From IMG/VR virus record IMGVR_UViG_3300005289_000311, positions 1-21,084 of that record: a stretch of 21,084 nucleotides of DNA; one strand, given 5' to 3'. Numbering within the stretch: the stretch's first letter is position 1; every line of letters begins with the position of its first letter. The notes below the pieces were generated by a model, which saw only the letters and a list, made by a program, of their open reading frames with translations, ran no database searches and had not been told where the DNA came from. Shown here piece by piece: positions 1,505 to 21,084 of the stretch. Origin of the DNA: a virus. The position numbers and the translations under genes were made by a program.

Positions 1505-2250
1505 CAGCCCACCCTCCGCCGACGGATCCGCGTGTCCCTGTGGGCGCTCCCGTGAGCCGCAATCCCCCCGGCAACCGAGTGAACCTCGACCGCCGAGATC
1601 GACAGGATGTCTGCGGCGTTCCAAGTCATGCCGACCTTGGGGTTGACCGGCGCCTCGTCGTACTCCATCTGTGAGGAACCCGCGCCTCCTGGCTGCGCCG
1701 GTGAACCCAGCAGTGTGTAGTTGGCCCCGGCGGTGCCGACACCCCCGGTCAGGTCGGACGCGCTGCAAGCCACGACGATGCTGTCGGGCTTCGGGTCACG
1801 GGACAGCGTCGCCTCCAGGAAGGTCTTGTCTCCCACGTCGTAGTGCTCGGACGCCACGGCCCCGATGGGATCCGACAGGCTTGGGCCTCCGTCGATACGG
1901 ACCAGATGCAGAACCCCGCACCGGTAGACCGGCCCAGGCCCGTAGTTGAACGTGAGAGTCCCGGCCACCGCGCCCGACGCGATCCCCCACCAGACGTTCA
2001 CGCCGCAACGATCTAAGCCGGTGAACCGGTAGACGGCCTGGGCCGAAGGCACACGAGCCCAGGGAGCGTCCCAGCCGTTCGTTCCCACCAGGGTCGGACA
2101 GCGGTACGGAACATTGGGCGTGTCGTTCATCCGACCAACGATGAACGCTAGATACAGCGCGCCGTTGGTCGGGGTGATGCTGCCGGTCACGTACGAAGTC
2201 AGGTCGGCGATGTCAACGAGCTGGCTCTCCATCACCGCCGCGAGCGCCAT
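1504..2250 (-). CDS. Phage structural protein, probably minor tail/appendage, function unknown
   Basis: This is a 248-residue protein starting MALAAVMESQLVDI. The sequence is Gly/Ala/Ser/Thr-rich and predicted mostly beta, with segments such as NGALYLAFIVGR, VYRFTGLDRCGVNVWWG, GTLTFNYGPG and ADILSISAVEVHS. It ends in a basic stretch (RRRRVG). The LYLAFI...-type N-terminal strand followed by several aromatic strands is common in phage proteins with carbohydrate-binding or jelly-roll folds. It sits between two LamG/concanavalin-like genes, with ATGA-type overlaps on both sides, so co-expression as part of an adhesion module is likely. I cannot name a family with confidence. Confidence 0.7.
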   Translation of the reverse strand: MALAAVMESQLVDIADLTSYVTGSITPTNGALYLAFIVGRMNDTPNVPYRCPTLVGTNGWDAPWARVPSAQAVYRFTGLDRCGVNVWWGIASGAVAGTLTFNYGPGPVYRCGVLHLVRIDGGPSLSDPIGAVASEHYDVGDKTFLEATLSRDPKPDSIVVACSASDLTGGVGTAGANYTLLGSPAQPGGAGSSQMEYDEAPVNPKVGMTWNAADILSISAVEVHSVAGGIAAHGSAHRDTRIRRRRVG

Positions 2251-3053
2251 TACAGCCCCACCGTCTGCAACGCCCTCTTGCCCCGCTTCCCACCATGCGA
2301 GTTCCCCGCGAAGGTGTCGTCCGCGACCGCTGCGTTGTAGTGGGCCGCGATCCGTCCCGCCGACAGCGCCACCGGGTAGACGGCGACCTCGTCCAAGTAC
2401 CCGGCGAACGCATCCCCAGGAGCAGGCCCTCGCACGTTCAGACCGATCTCCTCGCCCGAGCCGGGGACAGGGTGGCCGCTTGTGCCCATGTTCGTCTGCT
2501 GGAAGTTGTCAAGCGCCCCGTTGATGTAGACGTCGATGCCGATCGCCGTGGCGGGCGTCGTGAACACAGCGACGACGTGGTACCACTTGTTCTTGATCTT
2601 GCCCGTTTGCTCCAGGACGCTCGATCTCGTGGATGCGTTGACTCCCGACGGACTGAAGGCGGAGATCCAGGCGTCGCCACCGAACCCGAACCATCCGATC
2701 CGGGACGTCTCGCCGGTACCCCCCGCCCCACCGACGCCCAGCAGAACCGCGGTGTCCCCACTCGATAGGGCGTTCTTTGGCTGAAACCAGAGCTCGTACG
2801 TCCAACTCGTCGGGCTGTTCAGGGCTCCCGCCGCGATCCCGACGTACGGGCCTCCATTGTCGATGGCATTGTTGAACCAGAGCCCCTTGCTGTTCGCGAT
2901 CCCCGGCTCGCGCCACGTCAGAGACCCCAGGGAGGAACCCCTGACGGTCCCGTTCCGATTGCCCGCCGTCTCGTCTTTGAACGGTGGGTTGCCCTCCTCG
3001 AAGCGCCAGTAGCCGGAGGGTGAGTCGGCGAGAACCTCGGCGGCGTACGCCAC
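2250..3053 (-). CDS. LamG (concanavalin A-like) domain protein, putative virion surface protein
   Basis: This is a 267-residue protein. The GTG at 3053 is preferred because it lies just after the upstream stop and gives the usual beginning of this phage family (VAYAAEVLADSPSGYWRF). An alternative GTG at 3095 would add 14 residues inside the upstream gene. LamG hallmarks are visible: a beginning YWRFEE, the strand SWTYELWFQPKN, a later KWYHVVAVF followed by IDVYINGALD, and the closing strand AGYLDEVAVYPVALSAGRIAAHYNAA. These are typical of laminin-G-like jelly-rolls that bind sugars or host surfaces. No catalytic motif is seen. It probably forms part of a receptor-binding or decoration structure. 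Confidence 0.85.
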   Translation of the reverse strand: MAYAAEVLADSPSGYWRFEEGNPPFKDETAGNRNGTVRGSSLGSLTWREPGIANSKGLWFNNAIDNGGPYVGIAAGALNSPTSWTYELWFQPKNALSSGDTAVLLGVGGAGGTGETSRIGWFGFGGDAWISAFSPSGVNASTRSSVLEQTGKIKNKWYHVVAVFTTPATAIGIDVYINGALDNFQQTNMGTSGHPVPGSGEEIGLNVRGPAPGDAFAGYLDEVAVYPVALSAGRIAAHYNAAVADDTFAGNSHGGKRGKRALQTVGL

Positions 3054-3057
3054 CGCC

Positions 3058-3720
3058 TTAGATCGGCCAGTCGATCTCCGCCCACGTGAGCCCACCGTTC
3101 ACGATCCAGGTGGTGCCCGCGCCGGTACCGGCCATGAGGGCGACCAGCGAGTTCGGGGGAACGATGATGAACCCGCCGAGATCCTCCGCCTGCGGGTTCG
3201 CCGCGAACCCGGCTGCGATCGCGGTCACGCCGTTCAGCAGCGCGATCTCGCGGCCGGTCGCCGGGGCCAGTCCGGTCAGTGCCGTGTTGTTGTACGGCAC
3301 CATCGAGGATCCGTCCGGAGACGCAGCCGCATCGAGCAACGTGCTGAAGATCGAGCCCGCCCCCGCCGCGGTGATCGACGTACCGACGCCGTGGATCGCG
3401 TTCAGCACGCCCTGACCACCGGCCGGGGTACCGGAGACCGTGGTGAGGTTCGATCGGAGCAGGACCGCTGCGCGCTTGGATCCGATCGGGTTCAGGAAGC
3501 CGACGACCGGGGTCGCTGTGGCAGCCGCGATCGGTGAGTTGTGGGTCGCCGCGATCGTGACCGTCTTGATCACGGTCGAGAAGATCCGACCCTCCAACGC
3601 GATGTTCGAGTACCTGCCGAGCAGGTCGCTGACGAGCAGTTCCCCGTACGCGCCCGAGCGCCCGTCAGCCTGGACACCCTTGGCGACTGGTGCGAATCGC
3701 CTGACGAGCTCTACAAGCAT
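3058..3720 (-). CDS. Phage virion-associated protein of unknown function
   Basis: This is a 220-residue protein starting MLVELVRRFAPVAKG. The early segment YGELLVSDLLGRYSNIALEG, followed by a strand-rich region with NPIGSKRAAVLL, resembles a type of uncharacterised structural protein common in uncultured phages, where a conserved DLLPRY-like motif begins a beta-rich body. The C-terminus (FIIVPPNSLVALMAGTGAGT...) looks like a beta-sandwich edge. The ATG is preceded by a run of Gs as the ribosome site, partly within the stop of the upstream gene. Its position between the capsid-proximal genes and the LamG genes suggests a virion component. Confidence 0.7.
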   Translation of the reverse strand: MLVELVRRFAPVAKGVQADGRSGAYGELLVSDLLGRYSNIALEGRIFSTVIKTVTIAATHNSPIAAATATPVVGFLNPIGSKRAAVLLRSNLTTVSGTPAGGQGVLNAIHGVGTSITAAGAGSIFSTLLDAAASPDGSSMVPYNNTALTGLAPATGREIALLNGVTAIAAGFAANPQAEDLGGFIIVPPNSLVALMAGTGAGTTWIVNGGLTWAEIDWPI

Positions 3721-6378: not shown

Positions 6379-7551
6379 TTAGCCGGTGATCCCTGTGGCG
6401 ACGCCGTGCACCTTGGGGAGCTCGACCTGCCAGCCGACCTCCGTCAGGTACTCGTCGGTCCACTTGTCATCACCGGGAGCCTGCCGGTCGATCAGGAGCT
6501 TGGTGTCCCTGTTCGCGATGTAGCGGTACGCCAGCCGCTTCGGTGCGATCGCGATCATGTAGCCGCCGAACCCCGTCCCGCCCGGTCCGTTCTCCAGGAG
6601 CCGGTGCTTGACGATGTTCATGCGGCCGTGGGAGGTGATCCACTGGTTGATCGCGATGCCGAACGTCTTGTCCGACGGCACCGTCTTCAGGCGTCCCGCT
6701 GCGAGCTGGTCGATCACGGACACGCCGAGGGCCGAGGCCATCAGGAGTCGAGAGTCGCCCTCTCCGGTCGGGTTCGTGAACCCGGCCATCCAGTTCTCGA
6801 TCTCCGCCTCGGTCATCGTCCCGCCCATGTTCTGGTTGTTCTGGGTCAGGAAGTAGAGCAACCCGCCCGTGTACCGGCGCGGCGCGCCAGCCACCGACGT
6901 GTCGTTGCTCAGCTCCCCGAACAGGGCGGTGCGTTCGAGATCGACCTTGTGCGCGACGGCCTGCTCCATCCGGAGCCGCGGGCGGTCCTTTCCGGTGTAG
7001 TTCTCCGAGTTCTCCTCGGTGCCGGTCGTACCGAACGGGCTCCGGACGATCTGCGTGTAGTTGAACGGGTACGTCTCCGCGTGTGAACGCGGAACCCCGA
7101 CCGAGTCGCCTTCAGGGAGCGCGTTCCCGATCGTCAGCAGGTCGTCGTTGTCCAGGATCGCGATGCCGTTCACGCCGTCACCATCGACCGCCCGGACTAC
7201 GGTCAGGGTGTTGGTCACGACGTTGGTGACGCGCATCTTCTCGCCGGTCCTCACGACCGCGATCACGTCACCGATGAAGTGCTCGACGCCGCTGTCCACG
7301 ACGATCGAGGTGGCGGTGGCCGAGTAGCCCGCGCCGTTGTTGACCTGGTCCCAACGGGACGGCAGATCCTTCTCGATCCACTCGAACTTCGAGTTGATGG
7401 CGACCCGCTTGGTCGGCGCTTGTGAGAGCACCACCGTGAGTGGGGCGGCATCCGGATCGAGGTACGCGATCCTCGAAGCCACGTCTCGAACCCGCCTAGA
7501 CGCCGGGACAAGGTCTGTGGATTCGTGGACCCTGATGACTGTCTGAGCCAT
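6379..7551 (-). CDS. Major capsid protein, SU10/DUF5309 type
   Basis: This is a 390-residue protein that builds the head shell. Recognisable features of the SU10-like HK97-fold family are FEWIEKDLPSR (residues 57-67), the beta-rich E-loop/insertion region, YPFNYTQIVRSPFG (161-174), an E-loop-proximal helix ending in ERTALFGE (206-213), RRYTGGLLYFL (225-235), the helix around ENWMAGF, and the C-terminal strand VGWQVELPKVHG. The length suits the family. The ATG has a GGGAGG site and follows a 141-base non-coding spacer, the longest in the head block, which may hold a promoter or mRNA processing site for strong expression. A hairpin follows the stop. Confidence 0.85.
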   Translation of the reverse strand: MAQTVIRVHESTDLVPASRRVRDVASRIAYLDPDAAPLTVVLSQAPTKRVAINSKFEWIEKDLPSRWDQVNNGAGYSATATSIVVDSGVEHFIGDVIAVVRTGEKMRVTNVVTNTLTVVRAVDGDGVNGIAILDNDDLLTIGNALPEGDSVGVPRSHAETYPFNYTQIVRSPFGTTGTEENSENYTGKDRPRLRMEQAVAHKVDLERTALFGELSNDTSVAGAPRRYTGGLLYFLTQNNQNMGGTMTEAEIENWMAGFTNPTGEGDSRLLMASALGVSVIDQLAAGRLKTVPSDKTFGIAINQWITSHGRMNIVKHRLLENGPGGTGFGGYMIAIAPKRLAYRYIANRDTKLLIDRQAPGDDKWTDEYLTEVGWQVELPKVHGVATGITG

Positions 7552-7594
7552 GAGTCCTCCCGTACCTCAGGTGGATGGTTCGCTCTCGCGCCTG

Positions 7595-7629
7595 GGGCCG
7601 GGTGCCGGGGGAAGTTCGGGCCGGGTGCC
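7595..7629. repeat. 12-base direct repeat GGGCCGGGTGCC in the spacer before the capsid gene
   Basis: Two perfect copies lie at 7595-7606 and 7618-7629, with starts 23 bases apart, inside the only sizeable non-coding gap of the head block (7552-7692). On the minus strand the spacer also holds GAATAG with no convincing -35 partner. A regulatory or mRNA structural role is possible but not shown. Confidence 0.5.
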
Positions 7630-7692
7630 CTTCGCGTTCCTATTCGGTTCGGGCTTCGGGCCTCCAGCGGGAGGGTGCCGTCCCGGCGGATC

Positions 7693-8730
7693 TCACTGGA
7701 AGAAGATAGACGATTCGCGCTCCGACTTCCAGAGGTTCAGGGCCTCATCGAACTCGTCCCCCTTGGGGGGCTGGCCGGGCGCTCCGGCGGGGATCCCCGA
7801 GCCTCCATGCTCGACGAAGGCAGCCCGGCGCTGGGCCTCGCCCTGGTTCACGCGCCGCTCCTGCCCCTTGGTGATCGCCGCCTGGATCTCGGGAGCTCCG
7901 GCCTGCTGCTTCGCGTACTGCCGTCCCTCGACCGTGTCCAGGTACGTCGGATTGAGCCGGTAGATCGTGAGCAGCTTCGGGTTCTGAACGCACTCCAGCG
8001 CAACGCTCAGCGCGTCGGGGTGCGCCATGTTCAGCCCGGTCGTCCGGCGGAGCTCGACGAACGCCGCGCCCACCTTCCGATCGAGCTCGCCGCCCTCCTC
8101 CACCTCGGGGTGGGATGCGTAGAAGGCGTCCACGTTCGTGTCGTACTGCGCCCGGCGCTGCTGCTCCTCCAGAGCCGCCGCCTGCTGCTGCTGGATCGGC
8201 GCGACCCGCTGGTCCACTCGCTGGCTGACGAGCTTCTCGATCTCCTGCTGCCGCTGGAGCTGCTCGGCGAGCTCGGGGTTCTCGGCCAGGAGCTGCTGGC
8301 TGATGAACGGCAGGATCGCCTGGAGCGTCTGCTGCTGTTGCGCCATCTGGGCCTGGAGCTGACCGAACGCCTCGGACTGAGCTCGCGCGTCGTTCATGGA
8401 CCTGGTGGCCCACGACTGCATCTCCTGGTAGCTCCGCTCGGCGTCCTCCACCGAGTCGAACTCGCGTCCGGCGAACAGGAGCCGCTCGAAGTCCTCGGCC
8501 GCTACCTCCTCCGCCGTGGGCTCAGGAGCCGCGTGCCGGGGCTCGTACTCGATGACGGTCGCGCCGTCTTCCTCGCCCTCGGGGGTCTCTCGTTCCTCGA
8601 CCTCTCCAACGACATCGACGACGTCAGCGCCGTCCAGGAGCGGATCGTCGTCGGTCGCTCCGGGCTGCTGCTGCTGCGGTGGGAAGCCGAACGCCTCCCC
8701 TGTCGGCATCTTCTGCTCAGGTGTGCTCAA
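7693..8730 (-). CDS. Putative capsid scaffolding protein
   Basis: This is a 345-residue, largely helical protein placed directly before the capsid gene, the usual position for scaffolds. The N-terminal 60 residues are acidic and Gln/Pro-rich, residues 85-215 are Gln/Glu/Ala-rich coiled coil (QAQMAQQQQTLQ, EQLQRQQEIEKLVSQRVDQR), a folded middle part holds VDAFYASHPEVEEGG and ALECVQNPKLLTIYRLNPTY, and the C-terminus has basic and aromatic residues (LNLWKSERESSIFF) of the sort scaffolds use to bind capsid subunits. The start is a TTG with a good GGAGG site in the last codons of the upstream gene, overlapping it by 14 bases. The next in-frame ATG would lose 7 residues. Confidence 0.8.
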   Translation of the reverse strand: MSTPEQKMPTGEAFGFPPQQQQPGATDDDPLLDGADVVDVVGEVEERETPEGEEDGATVIEYEPRHAAPEPTAEEVAAEDFERLLFAGREFDSVEDAERSYQEMQSWATRSMNDARAQSEAFGQLQAQMAQQQQTLQAILPFISQQLLAENPELAEQLQRQQEIEKLVSQRVDQRVAPIQQQQAAALEEQQRRAQYDTNVDAFYASHPEVEEGGELDRKVGAAFVELRRTTGLNMAHPDALSVALECVQNPKLLTIYRLNPTYLDTVEGRQYAKQQAGAPEIQAAITKGQERRVNQGEAQRRAAFVEHGGSGIPAGAPGQPPKGDEFDEALNLWKSERESSIFFQ

Positions 8731-9094
8731 CGATTTCCTCCTCGTCCCCGCCGTTTAGTCGGCGCTCGATCGACTCTTGCTTGCCCTGGATCATCTTGAA
8801 CTGCTGCGCCGCCCGGTGTGGGAGCGCGAGCAGGTACTCGAAGGCTCGGATCTGACCCTGCACGTTCGCGATCTGCTCGGGCTTGAACGTCTTCACCGCG
8901 AGCTCATCCTTGATCCGCGAGATCTCGGACTCCAGTGTCGTGCGGATGTGCTGCCACCCGTCCGATCGGAACGTGTCGAGCGTCTGCTGGAGCGCCGCCA
9001 GATCCCGCATCAGGATCCCGTGTGCGTTCTCCAGCGCCTTCGGATCGACCGTGTCCCCGAGGAACCGGGGCGCGAGCTTGGGGTCGTACGTCAT
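8717..9094 (-). CDS. Small helical phage head protein, function unknown
   Basis: This is a 125-residue, almost wholly helical protein. Residues 20-75 form a coiled-coil-like segment (ALENAHGILMRDLAALQQTLDTFR, TTLESEISRIKDELAV), followed by FEYLLALPHRAAQQFKMIQGKQES and an acidic end (GGDEEEIVEHT) whose codons also hold the ribosome site for the next gene. It is coupled (ATGA) to the portal stop. The place between portal and scaffold suggests an assembly factor; I do not recognise a family. Confidence 0.7.
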   Translation of the reverse strand: MTYDPKLAPRFLGDTVDPKALENAHGILMRDLAALQQTLDTFRSDGWQHIRTTLESEISRIKDELAVKTFKPEQIANVQGQIRAFEYLLALPHRAAQQFKMIQGKQESIERRLNGGDEEEIVEHT

Positions 9095-11043
9095 CCGACC
9101 GGAGCTCCCGCGAGAGCCTGGCTGAGATCAACGCCACCCGGTCCTGGTGCCGGTGCCGGTGCGAGACCTGGCTGCATCGGTCCGGCCGGGACGCCCGGCG
9201 GAGCCATGAGTCCGGGCTGGCCCATCTCGGTCTGCGGTCCGACCATGTAGGCGTCCAGATCCTTCTTCTTGTACGCCACGAGCACGTCCTCCACGAGCTT
9301 CTGCACGCCCGGCCCCGGCATCGGCTGACCCGTCATCGGGTCCACCGTCGGTGGCAGGTACTGCGAGAGTACCTCCAACAGCGTCAGTGCCTGCTCGCGC
9401 TGCGAGCTCTCGGTGAGCTGTGTCGAAGCCGTCTCGATGTCGTAGTCGAGCGAGCCCTGGATCGACTCGGGGTCGAACGTCTGGAACAGGATCTGCCCGC
9501 GCGGTCCGAGGATCCTGATCACTCGCTCCTCGGTGGTGAACTGCTGGATGATCGACCCGTACATGCGGCCCAGATCCTTCAGGCCCATCAGCTCCATGAG
9601 CGTCGTCTTCAGGGCGTACCGCGTCGCTCCCTGCTCCTGGATGATCGCCGTGCCGGTGGCGGTGTCGGCAAGCGAGTCCGAGCTCACGCCGGTCTGGTAC
9701 GCGCTCGTGGCCGATGCCCGCTCGGCGGTGTCCATGATCTCCCGCGTCTCCTCGTAGCTGGATCCGGTGACGTCGGGGAACTGGATCGGCATGATGACCT
9801 CTTGTGGGATCCGGTCGCCCGTGATCCGGATCATCCCGCCCGGCCGCGACTCCAGCTCGTCCATGTCCGCGATCGCGTTCTCGCTCACCCCGAACATCGC
9901 GTTGAGGATCAGACGCAGGTTGTCGATCCGCTGGTTCGTGATCGCGTTGAGCTGGTCCTGGAGTCCTTCGAGCGGCTCGATCTCACCGATGCCCCAGAAC
10001 TCGCCCTCGACCAGTTGGTCAACGAACCTGACGAACGGCTTCAGCCCGTGGTCGTACGGGTTCTCACTGACCCGGAGCAGCGCCTTGCGGTTCGCCATCG
10101 TGATCAGGCGACCGTCGTCGGTGTAGAACTCCAGGATCTCGATCGGCTTGCGTGTCGGATCGGTGTCGGATGGGCCAAGGTCGATCGACTCCAGCCGCTT
10201 CTTCAGTGGCTCGTCGGCCGTCTCGGTCATCTCTTTCGGGCTCATGTTGTCGGGCCAGCGGTACACGCCGGACTCGACCATCTTCTGGACGTGGCGGAGC
10301 TCCCGGTAGACGCGGTGGATGCAGTAGCGCGAGCTCTGCACGTCGTCCGCCTCCGGAGCCGGGAAGAAGTTCCAGATGTCCACCCACTCGGCAGCCGGTC
10401 CGTCGTACCCGACGTAGGAGTACCGCTCGACCTCGTAGCCCACCTGGATCCGGCCCATCGGCACCTGCTCGGTCTGCTGCATCGCCTGACCGTTCAGATC
10501 CATGAACGCGGATCCCTCGGGCTGTCGCAGCGTCGAGATCTGCGGTGCCATCACGTCCTCGTACTGCGGCACCATCTTGCGAGCTCGGTAGGTCACGACC
10601 TTGTGGTAGGTCTTCAGCAACCCGGTCCCGTACTTCAGCGCCGACTTCACGGCCTTGACGAGCTCCAGGAACAGATCGCTCTTGGTGGCCGACCAGTCCA
10701 TGAGCTGCTCCATCATCTTCGCGGGCTCGACGTCCTCCTCGCCGACGGGCAGGACCAGGAAGCGGGGGAGCTGTGCGACCAGACGAGGAGCCACCGTCTC
10801 GACGACCCAGAAGACCATCGGCACGAACATCTTCGAGTGCCAGTCCTCGGGATCGTGCTTCACGAACGCGCGGTATTGCTTGTAGTACCGCTCCCAGTTC
10901 TCGACGTAGCTCGACTTGGCTTTCTCGGCCGCGATGAAGGCGTTCTGGCACCAGCCGATCAGCTTCTTCTCGTCGTCGGAGTCCTCGGGGAACAGATCCT
11001 CGATGCCGGACTCGGGTCCGTACGCAGCCTCAGGCCCCGGCAT
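9091..11043 (-). CDS. Portal protein, P22-like
   Basis: This 650-residue protein is predicted to form the dodecameric portal ring through which DNA is packaged and ejected. The N-terminal region (YVENWERYYKQYRAFVKHDPEDWHSKMFVPMVFWVVETVAPRL), LVKAVKSALKYGTGLLKTYHKV, a wing with WVDIWNFFPAPEADDVQSSRYCIHRV, the stem-like helix LEGLQDQLNAITNQRIDNLRLILN, and a crown helix (TAERASATSAYQTGV...TATGTAIIQEQ) agree with P22-type portals, and the length is in their range. The C-terminus is Pro/Gly-rich (PGLMAPPGVPAGPMQPG...). It overlaps its upstream microgene in a TGATG, so translation is coupled. P22-like portals often belong to podoviruses. Confidence 0.85.
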   Translation of the reverse strand: MPGPEAAYGPESGIEDLFPEDSDDEKKLIGWCQNAFIAAEKAKSSYVENWERYYKQYRAFVKHDPEDWHSKMFVPMVFWVVETVAPRLVAQLPRFLVLPVGEEDVEPAKMMEQLMDWSATKSDLFLELVKAVKSALKYGTGLLKTYHKVVTYRARKMVPQYEDVMAPQISTLRQPEGSAFMDLNGQAMQQTEQVPMGRIQVGYEVERYSYVGYDGPAAEWVDIWNFFPAPEADDVQSSRYCIHRVYRELRHVQKMVESGVYRWPDNMSPKEMTETADEPLKKRLESIDLGPSDTDPTRKPIEILEFYTDDGRLITMANRKALLRVSENPYDHGLKPFVRFVDQLVEGEFWGIGEIEPLEGLQDQLNAITNQRIDNLRLILNAMFGVSENAIADMDELESRPGGMIRITGDRIPQEVIMPIQFPDVTGSSYEETREIMDTAERASATSAYQTGVSSDSLADTATGTAIIQEQGATRYALKTTLMELMGLKDLGRMYGSIIQQFTTEERVIRILGPRGQILFQTFDPESIQGSLDYDIETASTQLTESSQREQALTLLEVLSQYLPPTVDPMTGQPMPGPGVQKLVEDVLVAYKKKDLDAYMVGPQTEMGQPGLMAPPGVPAGPMQPGLAPAPAPGPGGVDLSQALAGAPVG

Positions 11044-11213
11044 CAGCTACCGCGGATGCCCTTGTTCGATCCGAACAGGCGGGTCTTGCAGATCCGGATC
11101 GCCGACTGCTCGTCCACCCGTGAGTTCTTCATCACGGACTGGATGCAGCTCTCCGTCTTCGCGACGTTCCGGGTCGAGTCACCGCCCGCCTTCTTCGGGA
11201 TCCCGTACGGCGT
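11043..11213 (-). CDS. PYGIPKKxGGDS microprotein, apparently with a non-standard (ACG) start
   Basis: An open frame of 56 codons ends in TGATG with the portal start. Its product reads TPYGIPKKAGGDSTRNVAKT, then ESCIQSVMKNSRVDEQSAIR, then ICKTRLFGSNKG, matching a widespread small phage protein often encoded next to portals (motif GIPKKxGGDSxxN, a Cys, a second Cys near the end). No ATG, GTG or TTG precedes the conserved motif in this frame. An ACG at 11213 has a GGAGG site 8 bases upstream and would give the usual MPYGIPKK beginning if read as Met. The alternative is readthrough of the TGA (in a leaky UGAC context) ending the upstream gene, which is in the same frame. The first ATG (codon 29) would cut off the motif. 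Confidence 0.65.
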   Translation of the reverse strand, partial: TPYGIPKKAGGDSTRNVAKTESCIQSVMKNSRVDEQSAIRICKTRLFGSNKGIRGS

Positions 11214-11216
11214 AGG

Positions 11217-12026
11217 TCAGCCCTCCACTTCGCGGATCGCCTTGATCAGCTCGGCCTTGTTCATGCTCGATCGGCCCTCGATGTCCAGGACCGACGCGAT
11301 CTCGTGGAGCTCCTCAACCGTCTTGTCGTCGAGCGACTCCTCGTCTGCCGCGATCGACTCCTCGGTCAGGGCCTCCTCGACCGTGACCTGACCTTCGAGC
11401 TGCTCGCCCGCGCGGATCTTCTCCGCCTCGTCGCGGAGCTCCTGTGCCGCGGCAGCATCGGCAGCCAGCGCCTCTGCCGTGTCGATCACCTCTTGCGCGA
11501 GTGCCGGAGACGATGAGGAAGCCACCTCCGGGAGCGCCTCCCCGGCGCGCCGACGCCGCTCGATCCCGCCACCGAACTGTTCGAGGGCAGCCGCCTTGTC
11601 TTCCTCCTCCAGCCGTTTGAACTCGTTGGCCTCGATCTCCTCGTCTGTCACGTCCGGGTTCGGACTGGCATCCACCTTCACGGTCGCTCGATCCACGACC
11701 TCGACGCCGAACGCATCGGCCAGCGCCTCCGCTGCGGAGTTGCGATCGCCCGCGCGCTCGTAGCCCTCCGACGGGAACACGATCTCGCCGTTGACCGCGA
11801 CGCCCGCGAAGTAGAACTGGTTGTCCTCGCCGCGGAACTCCTCGACCTTGCTGAGCTGGATCTTGTTCGGCGTGTCCTTCGGCTCCAGCGTGATGATCAG
11901 GCTGCCCGCGTCGTCGCCCTCGGTCGGCCGATCCACGTGGACATCCCACCCGCCGGTCAGTGCGTCTCGTGAGATCTCGGTCTCGATCCCGTCCGAGAGT
12001 CGCTTCACGATCAGTTCGTTCGCCAT
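11217..12026 (-). CDS. Putative head-assembly protein with C-terminal Rho-N/SAP-like helix pair
   Basis: This is a 269-residue protein with a strong GGAGGAGG ribosome site. Residues 1-100 are a beta-rich domain (NELIVKRLSDG, SLIITLEPKD, QLSKVEEFRGEDNQFYFAGVAVNG). Residues 105-230 are acidic and helical (EALADAFGVEV, EEEDKAAALEQFGG, EALAADAAAAQELRDEAEKI). The last 35 residues (KTVEELHEIASVLDIEGRSSMNKAELIKAIRE) match the Rho N-terminal/SAP-type helix-extended-helix motif, usually a nucleic-acid-binding module. It might bind DNA or RNA at the packaging site, or aid assembly. The following microprotein is in the same frame after a single TGA. Confidence 0.7.
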   Translation of the reverse strand: MANELIVKRLSDGIETEISRDALTGGWDVHVDRPTEGDDAGSLIITLEPKDTPNKIQLSKVEEFRGEDNQFYFAGVAVNGEIVFPSEGYERAGDRNSAAEALADAFGVEVVDRATVKVDASPNPDVTDEEIEANEFKRLEEEDKAAALEQFGGGIERRRRAGEALPEVASSSSPALAQEVIDTAEALAADAAAAQELRDEAEKIRAGEQLEGQVTVEEALTEESIAADEESLDDKTVEELHEIASVLDIEGRSSMNKAELIKAIREVEG

Positions 12027-12044
12027 CGGTCCTCCTCCTCTGGC

Positions 12045-12755
12045 CTACATCTGTCCCATCATGCCCGGCTGAAGGCCGAGCAGTTCCAGGATCCACGGTG
12101 GCAGCTCGGGCTGTGGTTCTGGTGTTCGCATGTCCGGCGGAGCCGGTGTGAACCCACCAGGCCCGAACAGTGGTTCAGGTGGAGCAGGTGCGAAGCCCGC
12201 GTCACCGCCGAGTCCGAGCGGCAATCCGAACCCGCCCGGTGCTGGCTCAGGTGGAGCAGGTGCGAAGCCTTGATCGCCCATCCCACCCAACAGACCCGGC
12301 AGCTCGGACACCGACGGGTTCTCGTACTGGCCGGTGTTCGGCCCCTCGTTCAGCGGGTACTGGGGCCACGATCCGCCGGGTGTCGGGGCCTGGCCGACCA
12401 GACCACCGAGCTCCTCTGGCATCAGCCCGCCGTACTCGCCGACGTCGCCACCCCCGTAGTCCTCGCCCAGCATGTCCATCGTGTCAGCCGGGGCGAGCTC
12501 CTCCTCGGGTGACGGCAGCACTGGTCCAGGCGGAGCGCCGAGCTCGTCTGGCGCAGGCTCCGGGTACATCTGGGGCAGAACCTGCGACAGCCCCTGGTAG
12601 TCGCCGTCCTCCATCAGCTTCCGGATCAGGTCCATCAGGATCGAGACACCGCTTTGCCCCATCGGCTGCTCGGGCTCGGGGCCGGTGGGGAAGCGGTTGC
12701 CGATCAGGGATCCTGGCCCGCTGTTGGGCGGGACGTACGGGGGCGCGATCGCCAT
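12045..12755 (-). CDS. Proline/glycine-rich, repeat-containing phage protein
   Basis: This is a 236-residue, low-complexity protein. Only a short helical part is seen early (VSILMDLIRKLMEDGDYQGLSQVLPQMY, residues 37-64). The rest is Pro/Gly/Glu-rich and probably disordered, with two GFAPAPPEP units and a looser GGFTPAPPDM, and ends in a short helix (PPWILELLGLQPGMMGQM). Short C-terminal and N-terminal helices joined by a disordered linker suggest a tether or assembly protein, but this is inference. It lies between the Cys/His-rich gene and the Rho-N-like gene. No strong ribosome site is seen. Confidence 0.65.
   Translation of the reverse strand: MAIAPPYVPPNSGPGSLIGNRFPTGPEPEQPMGQSGVSILMDLIRKLMEDGDYQGLSQVLPQMYPEPAPDELGAPPGPVLPSPEEELAPADTMDMLGEDYGGGDVGEYGGLMPEELGGLVGQAPTPGGSWPQYPLNEGPNTGQYENPSVSELPGLLGGMGDQGFAPAPPEPAPGGFGLPLGLGGDAGFAPAPPEPLFGPGGFTPAPPDMRTPEPQPELPPWILELLGLQPGMMGQM
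12175..12269. repeat. 23-base identical direct repeat coding for GFAPAPPEP
   Basis: The same 23 bases occur at 12175-12197 and 12247-12269, 72 bases (24 codons) apart, so the protein frame is kept. The identity suggests a recent in-frame duplication within the Pro-rich gene. Confidence 0.8.
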
Positions 12756-12764
12756 GCGGGCAGC

Positions 12765-13076
12765 CTAGCGCACCGGAGGCCCTGGTTCCAGGGGCTTGCC
12801 GTCTGGCTTCAGACCCCGTCGCTTCATGGCCGCAGGATCCGGACCATGTGCATCCCGGCCGTAGAACTGGGTCGCGTTGCCCGGCCCGTAGTACGGGAAC
12901 TGGCCGACGCAGCCCTCGTCCGGATCGTTCTCATGGTCCTGGCACCGACAGCACCAGCACACGTGGCTCGGGTGTCCATGCTCCAGCTTGTCGTGACCGA
13001 CCACCAGACGGCAGCCGTGCGATCCCCAGAAGACCTGGCAGCTCAGATCGCCGTGTCGCTGTGCACGAGCGGTCAC
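12765..13076 (-). CDS. Cys/His-rich small protein downstream of terL
   Basis: This is a 103-residue protein with its start overlapping the TerL stop (GTGA). It has C13, H20, C22, H28, H33, H35, H38, C40, C42, C43, C45, H48 and C56, so half of the protein is rich in potential metal ligands (a core HGHPSHVCWCCRCQDHE). The C-terminus is Pro/Gly-rich with YGRDAHGPDPAAMKRRGLKPDG. No HNH nuclease or other catalytic pattern fits, so I call it only a putative zinc-binding protein. Terminase-coupled zinc proteins could help packaging, but no evidence for that is seen here. Confidence 0.65.
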   Translation of the reverse strand: MTARAQRHGDLSCQVFWGSHGCRLVVGHDKLEHGHPSHVCWCCRCQDHENDPDEGCVGQFPYYGPGNATQFYGRDAHGPDPAAMKRRGLKPDGKPLEPGPPVR

Positions 13077-14857
13077 TCGTCATCCCATCCGTAGTCCACG
13101 ACGCCGGTCGGTGTCTTCGCCCTCTTTACTTTCTTGGTCTCGCCGACCTTAGAGCTCGGACAGGCGTGTCGCAACGCCATCTGGAGACAGCCCGCGGCGG
13201 TGATCACGCGGTCATCATGGCACGCCTCCTCGGCTGCCGGTCGGCCCTTCTCGTCCTTCACGAACGTGAACATCTCGTCGATCGACCGCTGGTTCGGGAG
13301 CCAGACGTCCTCGGTCCGGATCGCTTTCGCCAGGTCGTCGAGCATCGGCATCCGGTTCTGCTCGGAGGTGATCCACCCGATCTCCATCGTGGCCTTGTCG
13401 GTCCGCCGGTTGATGACCCGGTGCGAATACAGGAGCGGGTACTCCAGCCTCTCTCGGAGCTCCCTGACGATCGTCTGGCCCGAGCTGTGGTTCCGCTCCA
13501 CCCCGATCAGCGCAGGGCGTGACGGCATCTCTGGTGGCCTGCACGAGTAGAAGTAGCCGAGCCGCCAGACCAGCGTCGCGAAGTATTCGGGTGCGATGTG
13601 GCCGTGGAGCTGAGCCACGAACTTCCGGCGGTTCACGTCGAAGACGTCGGCGCACGAGAAGTCCCGGCCACCGACCTCGGCGAGCTGATCGGTGAGAGCG
13701 CCTTCGAGCCCCGACAGGATCCCCTCGGCCGTGTCGCAGAAGATGACGTAGTGCGAGCCCTGCTGCGGCATCTCCCAGATCCGGAGGTGTCCTCGCGGAT
13801 CCGGCTGCGGTGTCAGGAACTCGTCGGTCTGTCGCAGGCTCCCTCGGAAGATCGGCTCGAACGACGAGATCTCGTACCGGCGCAGCGGCTCCTCGTCGAA
13901 GAACATCTGCCCCGATGCCAGGAACGCCTCGTCCGGTGTGGCCGGGAACTCCTGCCGGAAGCCTCGCTCGTTGCCCTCGAACTGCTCCGCGATCGTGCGA
14001 CGTCGCCACAGGATCTGCCCGAGGGTGAGCTGGTGCCGCTTCCCCCGCCACTCGAACCCCTGGGTCATCGCGAGCTGCTCGTACTCGTCCAGCGTCTCCA
14101 GCTCCGCTCGATCGTGTGCGCTCAGCTTGTGGATCGTGTATTCGCGGTAGATCCACCAGGGCAGGAACACCGGCCTGAACCCGTTGCGACCGTTCACCGC
14201 TCCGGTCCACAGGCGGTGGAAGAAGTTGCCTCGCCCCTTGGCCGTGCTCTCGACGATCACCTCTGTCCCGTCGCGCGGGATCGCCTGCATGAGCGAGATC
14301 CACGCCTCCTCGGGCTTCTTGTAGCTGGACAGCTCGGACAGGTGCGCGAGCTGGTACGTGGCTCCTCGTGCGACGTCCTCGTCCCCCGCCGTGTCCACCT
14401 CGATCGCCGAGTCCAGCCCTGGGTTCAGCGAGATCTCGATCGGATCGTGGCTCGGGTTCCCGTACCGGAGCTCTCGGGCTCGGGAGCTGTATTGCCGCAT
14501 CGGCCGCATCTCGGTGGGCAGGTGCGCGTCGAACCGTCGGTAGATCCTGAAGATCCTGGCCGATCGCTCGGTCTTGTCGGTGACGACGATCGCGTCCGTC
14601 TCCGGCCAGAGCTGCACCTTGCGGAAGAAGCGAGCCGCGACGTAGGTCGTGACGCCTTCCTGCCGGGCCTTCAGCACCACGAGCCGGACCCGGTGTTCGG
14701 TGGCCCACTGGTCCTGGCACTCCCGATCGACGATCTCCTGAGCGAAGTTCAGCTCCAGGGGGATGACTCGCCCGCCTTCCTTGGGACGGATGACGAGCGA
14801 GCTCCGACAGTAGACGTTCAGATCCTCGTGGAGTACCGAAGGCGCTTCGACGATCAC
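13073..14857 (-). CDS. terL: Terminase large subunit (TerL)
   Basis: This 594-residue protein is the ATPase and nuclease of the DNA-packaging motor. ATPase domain: Walker A-type VLKARQEGVTTY (about 61-72, K63), Walker B YQLAHLSE (168-175, acidic S-E end), and coupling motif VESTAKG (202-208). RNase-H-like nuclease domain: first acid in VIFCDTAEG (D375), second in LIGVERN (E454), third in CHDDRVITAA (D548/D549). The spacing and length suit the family. The start is a GTG one base after the preceding stop, with a weak ribosome site, so translation is probably coupled. The Cys/His-rich gene follows in a GTGA overlap. Confidence 0.95.
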   Translation of the reverse strand: MIVEAPSVLHEDLNVYCRSSLVIRPKEGGRVIPLELNFAQEIVDRECQDQWATEHRVRLVVLKARQEGVTTYVAARFFRKVQLWPETDAIVVTDKTERSARIFRIYRRFDAHLPTEMRPMRQYSSRARELRYGNPSHDPIEISLNPGLDSAIEVDTAGDEDVARGATYQLAHLSELSSYKKPEEAWISLMQAIPRDGTEVIVESTAKGRGNFFHRLWTGAVNGRNGFRPVFLPWWIYREYTIHKLSAHDRAELETLDEYEQLAMTQGFEWRGKRHQLTLGQILWRRRTIAEQFEGNERGFRQEFPATPDEAFLASGQMFFDEEPLRRYEISSFEPIFRGSLRQTDEFLTPQPDPRGHLRIWEMPQQGSHYVIFCDTAEGILSGLEGALTDQLAEVGGRDFSCADVFDVNRRKFVAQLHGHIAPEYFATLVWRLGYFYSCRPPEMPSRPALIGVERNHSSGQTIVRELRERLEYPLLYSHRVINRRTDKATMEIGWITSEQNRMPMLDDLAKAIRTEDVWLPNQRSIDEMFTFVKDEKGRPAAEEACHDDRVITAAGCLQMALRHACPSSKVGETKKVKRAKTPTGVVDYGWDDE

Positions 14858-20264: not shown

Positions 20265-20449
20265 GTCTGCCTCCTCGCTCGTGTCTCCGCCCGATCGACA
20301 TGGCACAGCTCGACCGGGAACACCCGACGCTCGTCGTCGGGGCCGACGGCATCCACCGTCTCGTCGGCGTGGACCGCGATCACCCGGAACCGCTTACCCC
20401 TGGTCCCCGGCCACGTCGCCGACACCCTGATCAAGTCGCCTGTCCTCAC
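20261..20449 (-). CDS. Small beta-barrel-like phage protein
   Basis: This is a 62-residue protein starting with GTG at 20449 (VRTGDLIRVSATWPG), with GGAGG upstream and a GTGA overlap with the upstream stop. The pattern TGDLIRVSAT...GKRFRVIAVHADETVDAVGPDDERRVFPVELCHV suggests a small SH3/KOW-like barrel. The longer frame to 20590 is a shadow. Function is unknown. Confidence 0.6.
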   Translation of the reverse strand: MRTGDLIRVSATWPGTRGKRFRVIAVHADETVDAVGPDDERRVFPVELCHVDRAETRARRQT

Positions 20450-20739
20450 CGCGTCGCCTCCTGTCGCACGTCGAGCCGCCGGGCCAGAGCCACCGCCGAG
20501 TTGTAGAGGCCGCGCTCCGGTCCGGGGTTCTTCTTCCTCGTGGACATCTTGTGGACCACCCAGCCCGCGAAGGTCCGCAGCGTCCAGCACTCGTGGTTCG
20601 CGAGCTCGATCTCGAACGATCCGTCTCGCCTCCGCCGTTCAGCCGAGAGCCGAGCGAGAAGGTCTCGCTCCTCCTGGGTCCAGACGACGGCCTCGCGGTT
20701 CAGGTAGTCGATGACCGAGCCGTGGATCCTCACCTTCAT
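20446..20739 (-). CDS. First gene of the minus-strand series, function unknown
   Basis: This is a 97-residue, basic protein starting MKVRIHGSVIDYLNREAVVW. It has an ideal AGGAGGTGAGGAC ribosome site and lies just downstream of the minus-strand extended -10 promoter. TQEERDLLARLSAERRRRDG is a charged helix, followed by FEIELANHECWTLRTFAGWVVHKMSTRKKN and a last helix. I recognise no family. As the first gene after the promoter it is probably made early. Confidence 0.65.
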   Translation of the reverse strand: MKVRIHGSVIDYLNREAVVWTQEERDLLARLSAERRRRDGSFEIELANHECWTLRTFAGWVVHKMSTRKKNPGPERGLYNSAVALARRLDVRQEATR

Positions 20740-20759: not shown

Positions 20760-20768
20760 AGTCTATCA
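20760..20768 (-). promoter_or_regulatory. Extended -10 promoter (TGATAGACT) for the minus-strand series
   Basis: On the minus strand TG-A-TAGACT forms an extended -10 element 20 bases before the ATG of the 97-residue gene. No good -35 is seen. The sequence TAGACTCTGCG is identical to that at the promoter near 19043, and the plus-strand promoter has TAGTCTCTGCG. Confidence 0.55.
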
Positions 20769-20851: not shown

Positions 20852-20867
20852 TGTGACGAACGTCACA
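20852..20867. promoter_or_regulatory. CRP/GlxR-type palindrome TGTGACGAACGTCACA
   Basis: This 16-base palindrome is TGTGA-N6-TCACA, the full consensus of CRP-family regulators (CRP in enterobacteria, Crp/GlxR in actinobacteria). The inverted repeat has 7-base arms around AA. It lies between the divergent promoters, about 75 bases upstream of the likely plus-strand start, so it could connect phage expression with host carbon or cAMP signalling. It could instead be the operator of a phage repressor. Confidence 0.65.
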
Positions 20868-20898: not shown

Positions 20899-20928
20899 TT
20901 GACGCTGGCCCCACGCCCGGTCTAGTCT
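20899..20928 (+). promoter_or_regulatory. Sigma-70-type promoter for the DUF932 gene
   Basis: TTGACG (20899-20904) and TAGTCT (20923-20928) are spaced 18 bases apart, giving a likely transcription start near 20935 and a leader of about 40 bases to the ATG at 20975. The -10 continues CTGCG as in the two minus-strand promoters. Confidence 0.65.
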
Positions 20929-20974
20929 CTGCGTGTGGCGCTCCACCCCGGAGCTCCAAGAGAGGAGGCAGGCG

Positions 20975-21084
20975 ATGACCGCCTACTTCGACAGAGGGTT
21001 CAGCGTCAGGGAGACCCCCTGGCACAAGCTCGGAGAGGTAGTCCAGGACTACCCCGGCCGCGAGCAGGCCATGAGGCTCGCCGG
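20975..21084 (+). CDS. DUF932-family phage/plasmid protein, 5' part only
   Basis: The first 36 codons of a plus-strand gene are present; the rest lies beyond the right edge. It reads MTAYFDRGFSVRETPWHKLG, then EVVQDYPGREQAMRLAG. The pattern (RGF-x-VRE-x-PWHxLG...YPGREEAMRLAG) is the typical beginning of DUF932 (phage/plasmid-like) proteins, common in actinobacterial phages and of poorly known function. The ATG has AGAGGAGG eight bases upstream and follows a good promoter. It is the only gene here on the plus strand. Confidence 0.8.
   Translation, partial: MTAYFDRGFSVRETPWHKLGEVVQDYPGREQAMRLA

Follow-up and report, generated by a model that had tools for sequence, protein, structure and literature searches.

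The GlxR site of Corynebacterium glutamicum is TGTGANNTANNTCACA, and the Rex operator reads TTGTGAAN4TTCACAA, with A after TGTGA, T before TCACA and T/A outside the arms. In Mycobacterium tuberculosis, sites of CRP-Mt (Rv3676) gather between −60 and −40 relative to mapped starts; CRP binding in an upstream position goes with activation, and sites are also located between divergent genes (PMC4117774). Host cAMP-CRP is known to control genes of E. coli phages such as T1, in which it represses the pir, dam and recE promoters (PMC6737242). A limited check of the open-access literature found no report of host-CRP control in phages of actinobacteria.

The locus analysed here belongs to a virus record of 21,084 bases, itself a fragment, which is referred to below as the window. 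It contains a palindrome whose arms and length are those of the C. glutamicum GlxR site, but the central TA of GlxR is absent both from the window palindrome (GAAC) and from most sites of the viral promoter class described below (RAAW). Like the CRP-Mt sites, it is a TGTGAN6TCACA palindrome placed between divergent genes and upstream of a start; unlike them, for which binding to chromosomal regions was measured, it is predicted from sequence. Palindromes of the viral class are centred at about −53.5, within the range of −60 to −40 where CRP-Mt sites gather, whereas the window site is predicted at about −75, outside that range. The proposal made below resembles phage T1 in that host CRP would govern phage genes and tie phage development to host metabolism, and differs from it in that the T1 case is one of repression, was demonstrated directly in vitro and concerns a gamma-proteobacterial host. 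A reading of the window palindrome as a Rex operator was rejected, given its C and G inside the arms, the A before them and the G after.

The palindrome and its rarity

Sequence reading and a mismatch scan confirmed TGTGACGAACGTCACA at positions 20852–20867 (no strand assigned), in agreement with the sequence-only reading, which had noted a perfect CRP/GlxR consensus palindrome here. Every position of the TGTGA-N6-TCACA arms is matched, and the inverted repeat is longer than first described, with 7-bp arms (TGTGACG/CGTCACA) flanking a central AA. The site also has the C at position 6, the G at position 11 and the oriented RAA spacer of the viral promoter class (TGTGAC-GAAC-GTCACA).

The earlier statement that such a word is rare by chance was borne out: perfect sites are expected 0.006 (base composition) to 0.013 (dinucleotide model) times per window, and 7e-5 to 1.3e-4 times (the higher value from the dinucleotide model) in the 234-nt gap between the divergent genes. 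The scan for further sites that had been proposed, carried out over the whole 21-kb fragment, returned no second site with 0–1 mismatch to TGTGAN6TCACA, and matches with up to two mismatches were at chance level (5 against 6.2 expected). Palindromes with arms of at least 7 bp are common in the window (17, or 0.8 per kb), and the informative part is therefore the match to the CRP/GlxR consensus word.

The divergent region and neighbouring genes

The 234-nt gap that contains the palindrome separates a structural operon on the minus strand from a DUF932-like gene on the plus strand. On the plus strand, a −35-like hexamer TTGACG (20899–20904), 31 nt from the palindrome, is followed after an 18-nt spacer by a −10-like hexamer TAGTCT (20923–20928), with a predicted transcription start at 20934–20938. 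A Shine-Dalgarno sequence GGAGG (20964–20968, plus strand) precedes the start of the DUF932-like gene (MTAYFDRGFSVRETPWHKLGEVVQDYPG..., 20975–21084, plus strand), of which 36 codons are present until the record ends. Over some 30 aa, this fragment is 58–63% identical to the corresponding gene start of Mementomorivirus phages, which infect Microbacterium, and it appears to carry an N-terminus typical of actinophage DUF932-like proteins, the DUF932 label being given by resemblance; a Pfam search with the 36 codons, too short a fragment, returned no DUF932 match.

The leftward unit has a −10-like hexamer TAGACT (20760–20765, minus strand) without a clear −35. Its first small gene (20446–20739, minus strand) encodes 97 aa with a weak match to phrog_2761, and AGGAGGTGAGG lies ahead of its ATG (20739). 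The leftward structural block (6379–14857, minus strand) includes the genes of an SU10-like capsid protein (6379–7551), an SU10-like portal (9091–11043) and the terminase large subunit (13073–14857). Between the portal and terminase genes, 11217–12026 (minus strand) encodes a product with a C-terminal Rho_N/HeH-like domain (Pfam Rho_N, 6e-9) and PHROG matches to Arc-like repressor and endonuclease VII families. Elsewhere in the window, 2250–3095 encodes a protein with a Laminin_G_3 (concanavalin A-like) domain, a probable sugar-binding tail or capsid decoration protein.

A strict sigma-70 promoter scan accepted no promoter in the divergent region, because TTGACG/TAGTCT scores 8/12 and no −35 can be recognised for TAGACT on the minus strand. 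The placement in a divergent control region, as proposed earlier, is right; the two promoters are predictions read from the sequence, below the strict-scan threshold, among which TTGACG-18-TAGTCT is plausible. The earlier figure of about 75 bases holds when measured to the predicted plus-strand transcription start, from which the palindrome centre lies at −74.5 to −78.5 (near −75.5); measured to the ATG at 20975, the distance from the centre is 115 bp. With respect to the predicted leftward start, the centre is about 106 bp upstream, and neither promoter is overlapped by the palindrome.

Distribution of the word in viral contigs

Across viral contigs, the exact 16-mer occurs 34 times in 24 contexts. 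A control palindrome matched in dinucleotides and counted with the same centres occurs 4 times; both exact-centre scans were complete. The raw count (32 stretches) looked close to chance in so large a collection until it was set against the matched control. With the centre left free, TGTGACGNNCGTCACA was found in at least 119 stretches versus 53 in all for the control palindrome. Among the TGTGACGNNCGTCACA matches listed, 39% lie outside any ORF of 100 codons, as opposed to 9% of the control matches (p 2e-4).

A viral promoter class with fixed spacing

The presence of TTGACA shortly downstream of the palindrome in some contexts prompted a scan of the viral contigs with the pattern TGTGACN4GTCACA-N{3,33}-TTGACA. 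The scan revealed a sharp preference: a gap of exactly 10 nt accounted for 51 distinct cases, and each of the other gaps for about 2. Smaller excesses were present at 11, 21 and 31 nt, and in four of the seven 31-nt cases a second palindrome stands in tandem, at 10 nt. Nearly all gap-10 cases continue with 17 nt and then TAnnnT. Imperfect palindromes (8–9/10), which lie outside the search pattern, numbered 23 at the 10-nt gap, and the other gaps tested yielded no such case. The oriented consensus of the class is ggTGTGAC[GA]AA[AT]GTCACA-N10-TTGACA-N17-TAnAGT, in which the palindrome is centred at about −53.5.

WhiB was detected in 35 of 48 records with the gap-10 promoter and in 8 of 42 other-gap records (p 3e-7), in a search whose control gave matches only in Corynebacterium. 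It is frequent rather than universal in the class, and as an actinobacterial signature it points to actinobacterial hosts for the contigs that carry it; it is absent from the 21-kb window fragment and from 11 relatives of the window phage. A Crp-type HTH was found in none of the 48 gap-10 contigs and not in the window, although the control search for this domain gave matches in 14 of 14 control genomes. By nucleotide similarity, 45 gap-10 contigs form 11 clusters, and 27 of them belong to one linked group; the peak at 10 nt is therefore partly due to shared descent, with site and spacer sequences still differing.

Several copies of the class promoter occur in each of the contigs L309, L381, L346, L298, L320, L368, L374 and L386. 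Each copy precedes a small gene of unknown function (e.g., the MTRKHYNAIAKVLRQEL... family), and the predicted leaders are often 28–60 nt.

Compared with the class, the window has a gap of 31 nt instead of 10, two helical turns further, and an 18-nt spacer between −35 and −10, so that it is not a gap-10 promoter. Its GAAC spacer fits the oriented RAA of the class when read towards the plus promoter. In two further contigs, L025 and L117, the palindrome is 32 nt from TTGACn-17/18-TAGAGT or TAGACT.

Relatives of the window phage and cultured phages

A search of the viral contigs with the terminase alone gave no relative, while the capsid protein and an alignment did. The terminase relatives among these contigs are only 37–46% identical, i.e., distant kin. 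Conservation in related phages, named earlier as a check, was not seen in what is a weak test: the perfect site is present in none of the 12 relatives, which are the distant kin available and most of which do not reach the divergent region. One-mismatch sites in these 12 are few and scattered. Contig L154 is the sole relative with a DUF932 gene and has no site upstream of it; a two-mismatch match before that gene overlaps the start codon and was rejected as chance. Nor is there such a palindrome ahead of the DUF932-like genes of Microbacterium, Rhodococcus and gut phages. The best named matches of the terminase, portal and capsid proteins come from phages that infect proteobacteria and hosts of other phyla, with identities of about 30% or below, and a genome-contig search for the host yielded nothing closer than distant matches in bins of Paracoccus and Clostridia.

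Turning to cultured isolates, gene 1 of Rhodococcus phage AngryOrchard is preceded by a single perfect TGTGAAGCCCATCACA. Comparison of six Rerduovirus genomes shows no change in either arm, while two spacer positions and the flank that follows vary. The gene-1 region of these phages (AngryOrchard, CosmicSans, RexFury and others) resembles the window in having a perfect TGTGAN6TCACA, here upstream of a leftward gene 1; it differs in its spacer (AAGCYCR), in having no TTGAC promoter at 10 nt, and in belonging to an unrelated phage. A search covering most of the genomes of three further cultured actinophages found no site, and the gap-10 promoter was absent from four cultured actinophages, searched over nearly the whole genomes. 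The gene-1 upstream TGTGAN6TCACA of these Rhodococcus erythropolis phages corresponds to L478, 428–443, and to the Rerduovirus relatives L482–L486.

A proposed host Crp-type regulator and its alternatives

On balance, we lean towards reading the window palindrome as a site for a host protein of the Crp/FNR superfamily (Crp or GlxR type) that would tune early rightward transcription. A dimer of the host Crp/GlxR-type regulator would bind the palindrome, some 75 bp ahead of where transcription from the DUF932 promoter is predicted to begin, and contact RNA polymerase from upstream, in a class-I-like position. Early rightward transcription would thereby be tuned, most likely raised, following host cAMP and carbon state; the host would presumably be an actinobacterium.

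This reading is favoured by the perfect consensus at an expectation of 1.3e-4 in the gap, by the 34 versus 4 exact 16-mers and by the excess outside ORFs. It is also favoured by the gap-10 class with WhiB and no Crp-type HTH, by the 23 imperfect sites at 10 nt, by the GAAC spacer that fits the class consensus, by the placement and activating role of CRP sites in M. tuberculosis (PMC4117774), by L025 and L117 at 32 nt, and by the 31-nt gap, which is two helical turns beyond 10, a single gap being in phase with the 10.5-bp repeat by chance in roughly one case in four. Against it are the single site, the 0 of 12 relatives with a perfect copy, the absence of a site upstream of the L154 DUF932 gene and the centre at −75.5, outside both the viral class (−53.5) and the M. 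tuberculosis cluster. The best named relatives are phages of proteobacteria and other phyla, and the lack of WhiB in the window and 11 relatives also counts against it. Finally, TTGACG is near consensus, so that an activator may not be needed.

The word could instead be the operator of a phage-encoded dimeric regulator that recognises a CRP-like sequence and sets early against late control. A palindrome in a divergent early/late gap is in the usual place for an operator, and the regulator gene could lie outside the record, which is a fragment. We regard this as unlikely, since the 21 kb contain a single site with up to one mismatch rather than several copies near the regulated promoters, a Crp-type HTH is absent from the window and 48 contigs with related promoters, and the word is the host consensus, recurring in phages without shared sequence. 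The phage CRP-like or other repressor raised by the sequence-only reading as the alternative to a host protein loses ground on the same two counts of HTH and array. A functionless chance palindrome is unlikely: 7-bp-arm palindromes are common (the window has 17, and about 0.2 would be expected in the gap) and this one was not found in relatives, but the word itself is expected 1.3e-4 times in the gap, chance stays below about 1% even when dozens of well-known operator words are allowed for, and the word is enriched outside coding sequence in viral contigs.

It is quite unlikely that a host Crp-type protein acts here as a repressor, as a distal silencer or DNA bender, or on the leftward late promoter. 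Repression by host cAMP-CRP has its precedent in T1 pir, dam and recE (PMC6737242), and a leftward −10 without a clear −35 is frequent in activator-dependent promoters; yet neither promoter is overlapped, about 106 bp separate the centre from the leftward start, and the oriented spacer fits the rightward promoter. Most improbable is a transcription terminator or RNA hairpin. The site does appear in the plus-strand terminator scan, with a 6-bp stem and a 4-nt loop followed by GTCTTTCTCG, but the stem is short, with three G-C pairs only, the tail has few consecutive T, and upstream there is no plus-strand gene to end.

For control by a host Crp-type regulator, the earlier suggestion that phage genes answer to a host cAMP-responsive protein thus draws general support from the viral contigs and the Rhodococcus phages and none from conservation in kin, and this support does not extend to GlxR specifically. 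More widely, we tentatively suggest that many actinobacterial viruses may share a Crp-type palindrome exactly 10 nt, about one helical turn, before the −35, in up to four copies per contig fragment and ahead of small genes of unknown function, so that a whole set of phage genes would answer to host cAMP-Crp; the window site would then be a more distantly spaced variant. If host Crp/GlxR reads such sites, early phage expression would be tied to the carbon state of the host. The spacing rule (10 nt to TTGACA, 17 nt to TAnnnT) offers a sharp pattern for promoter annotation in uncultured actinobacterial viruses, and we consider the promoter class a more interesting outcome than the window site itself.

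Clustered palindromes and accompanying motifs

Several other arrangements of the palindrome were observed in the viral contigs. L367 (10,283 bases) has ten perfect TGTGAN6TCACA sites, about one per kb, the densest of the contigs tabulated. In the 3602 region of L006 and the 7623 region of L020, the near-identical palindromes TGTGACGAACGTCACA, TGTGTCGGGCGTCACA, TGTGTCGATCGTCACA and TGTGACGAGCGTCACG are clustered within about 110 nt. In L012, L013, L018, L027, L032, L103, L106 and L128, the CRP-like palindrome is accompanied within about 40 nt by a second motif, (T)CTGACCTGCGG, present in this form, as the complement or slightly altered. A recurring intergenic module, in which TGTGACGTACGTCACA adjoins a conserved inverted repeat of the CTCAGAGTACTT...AGTACTC type, is found in the otherwise varying contigs L049, L051, L059, L068, L081, L101, L109, L116, L132, L133 and L138.
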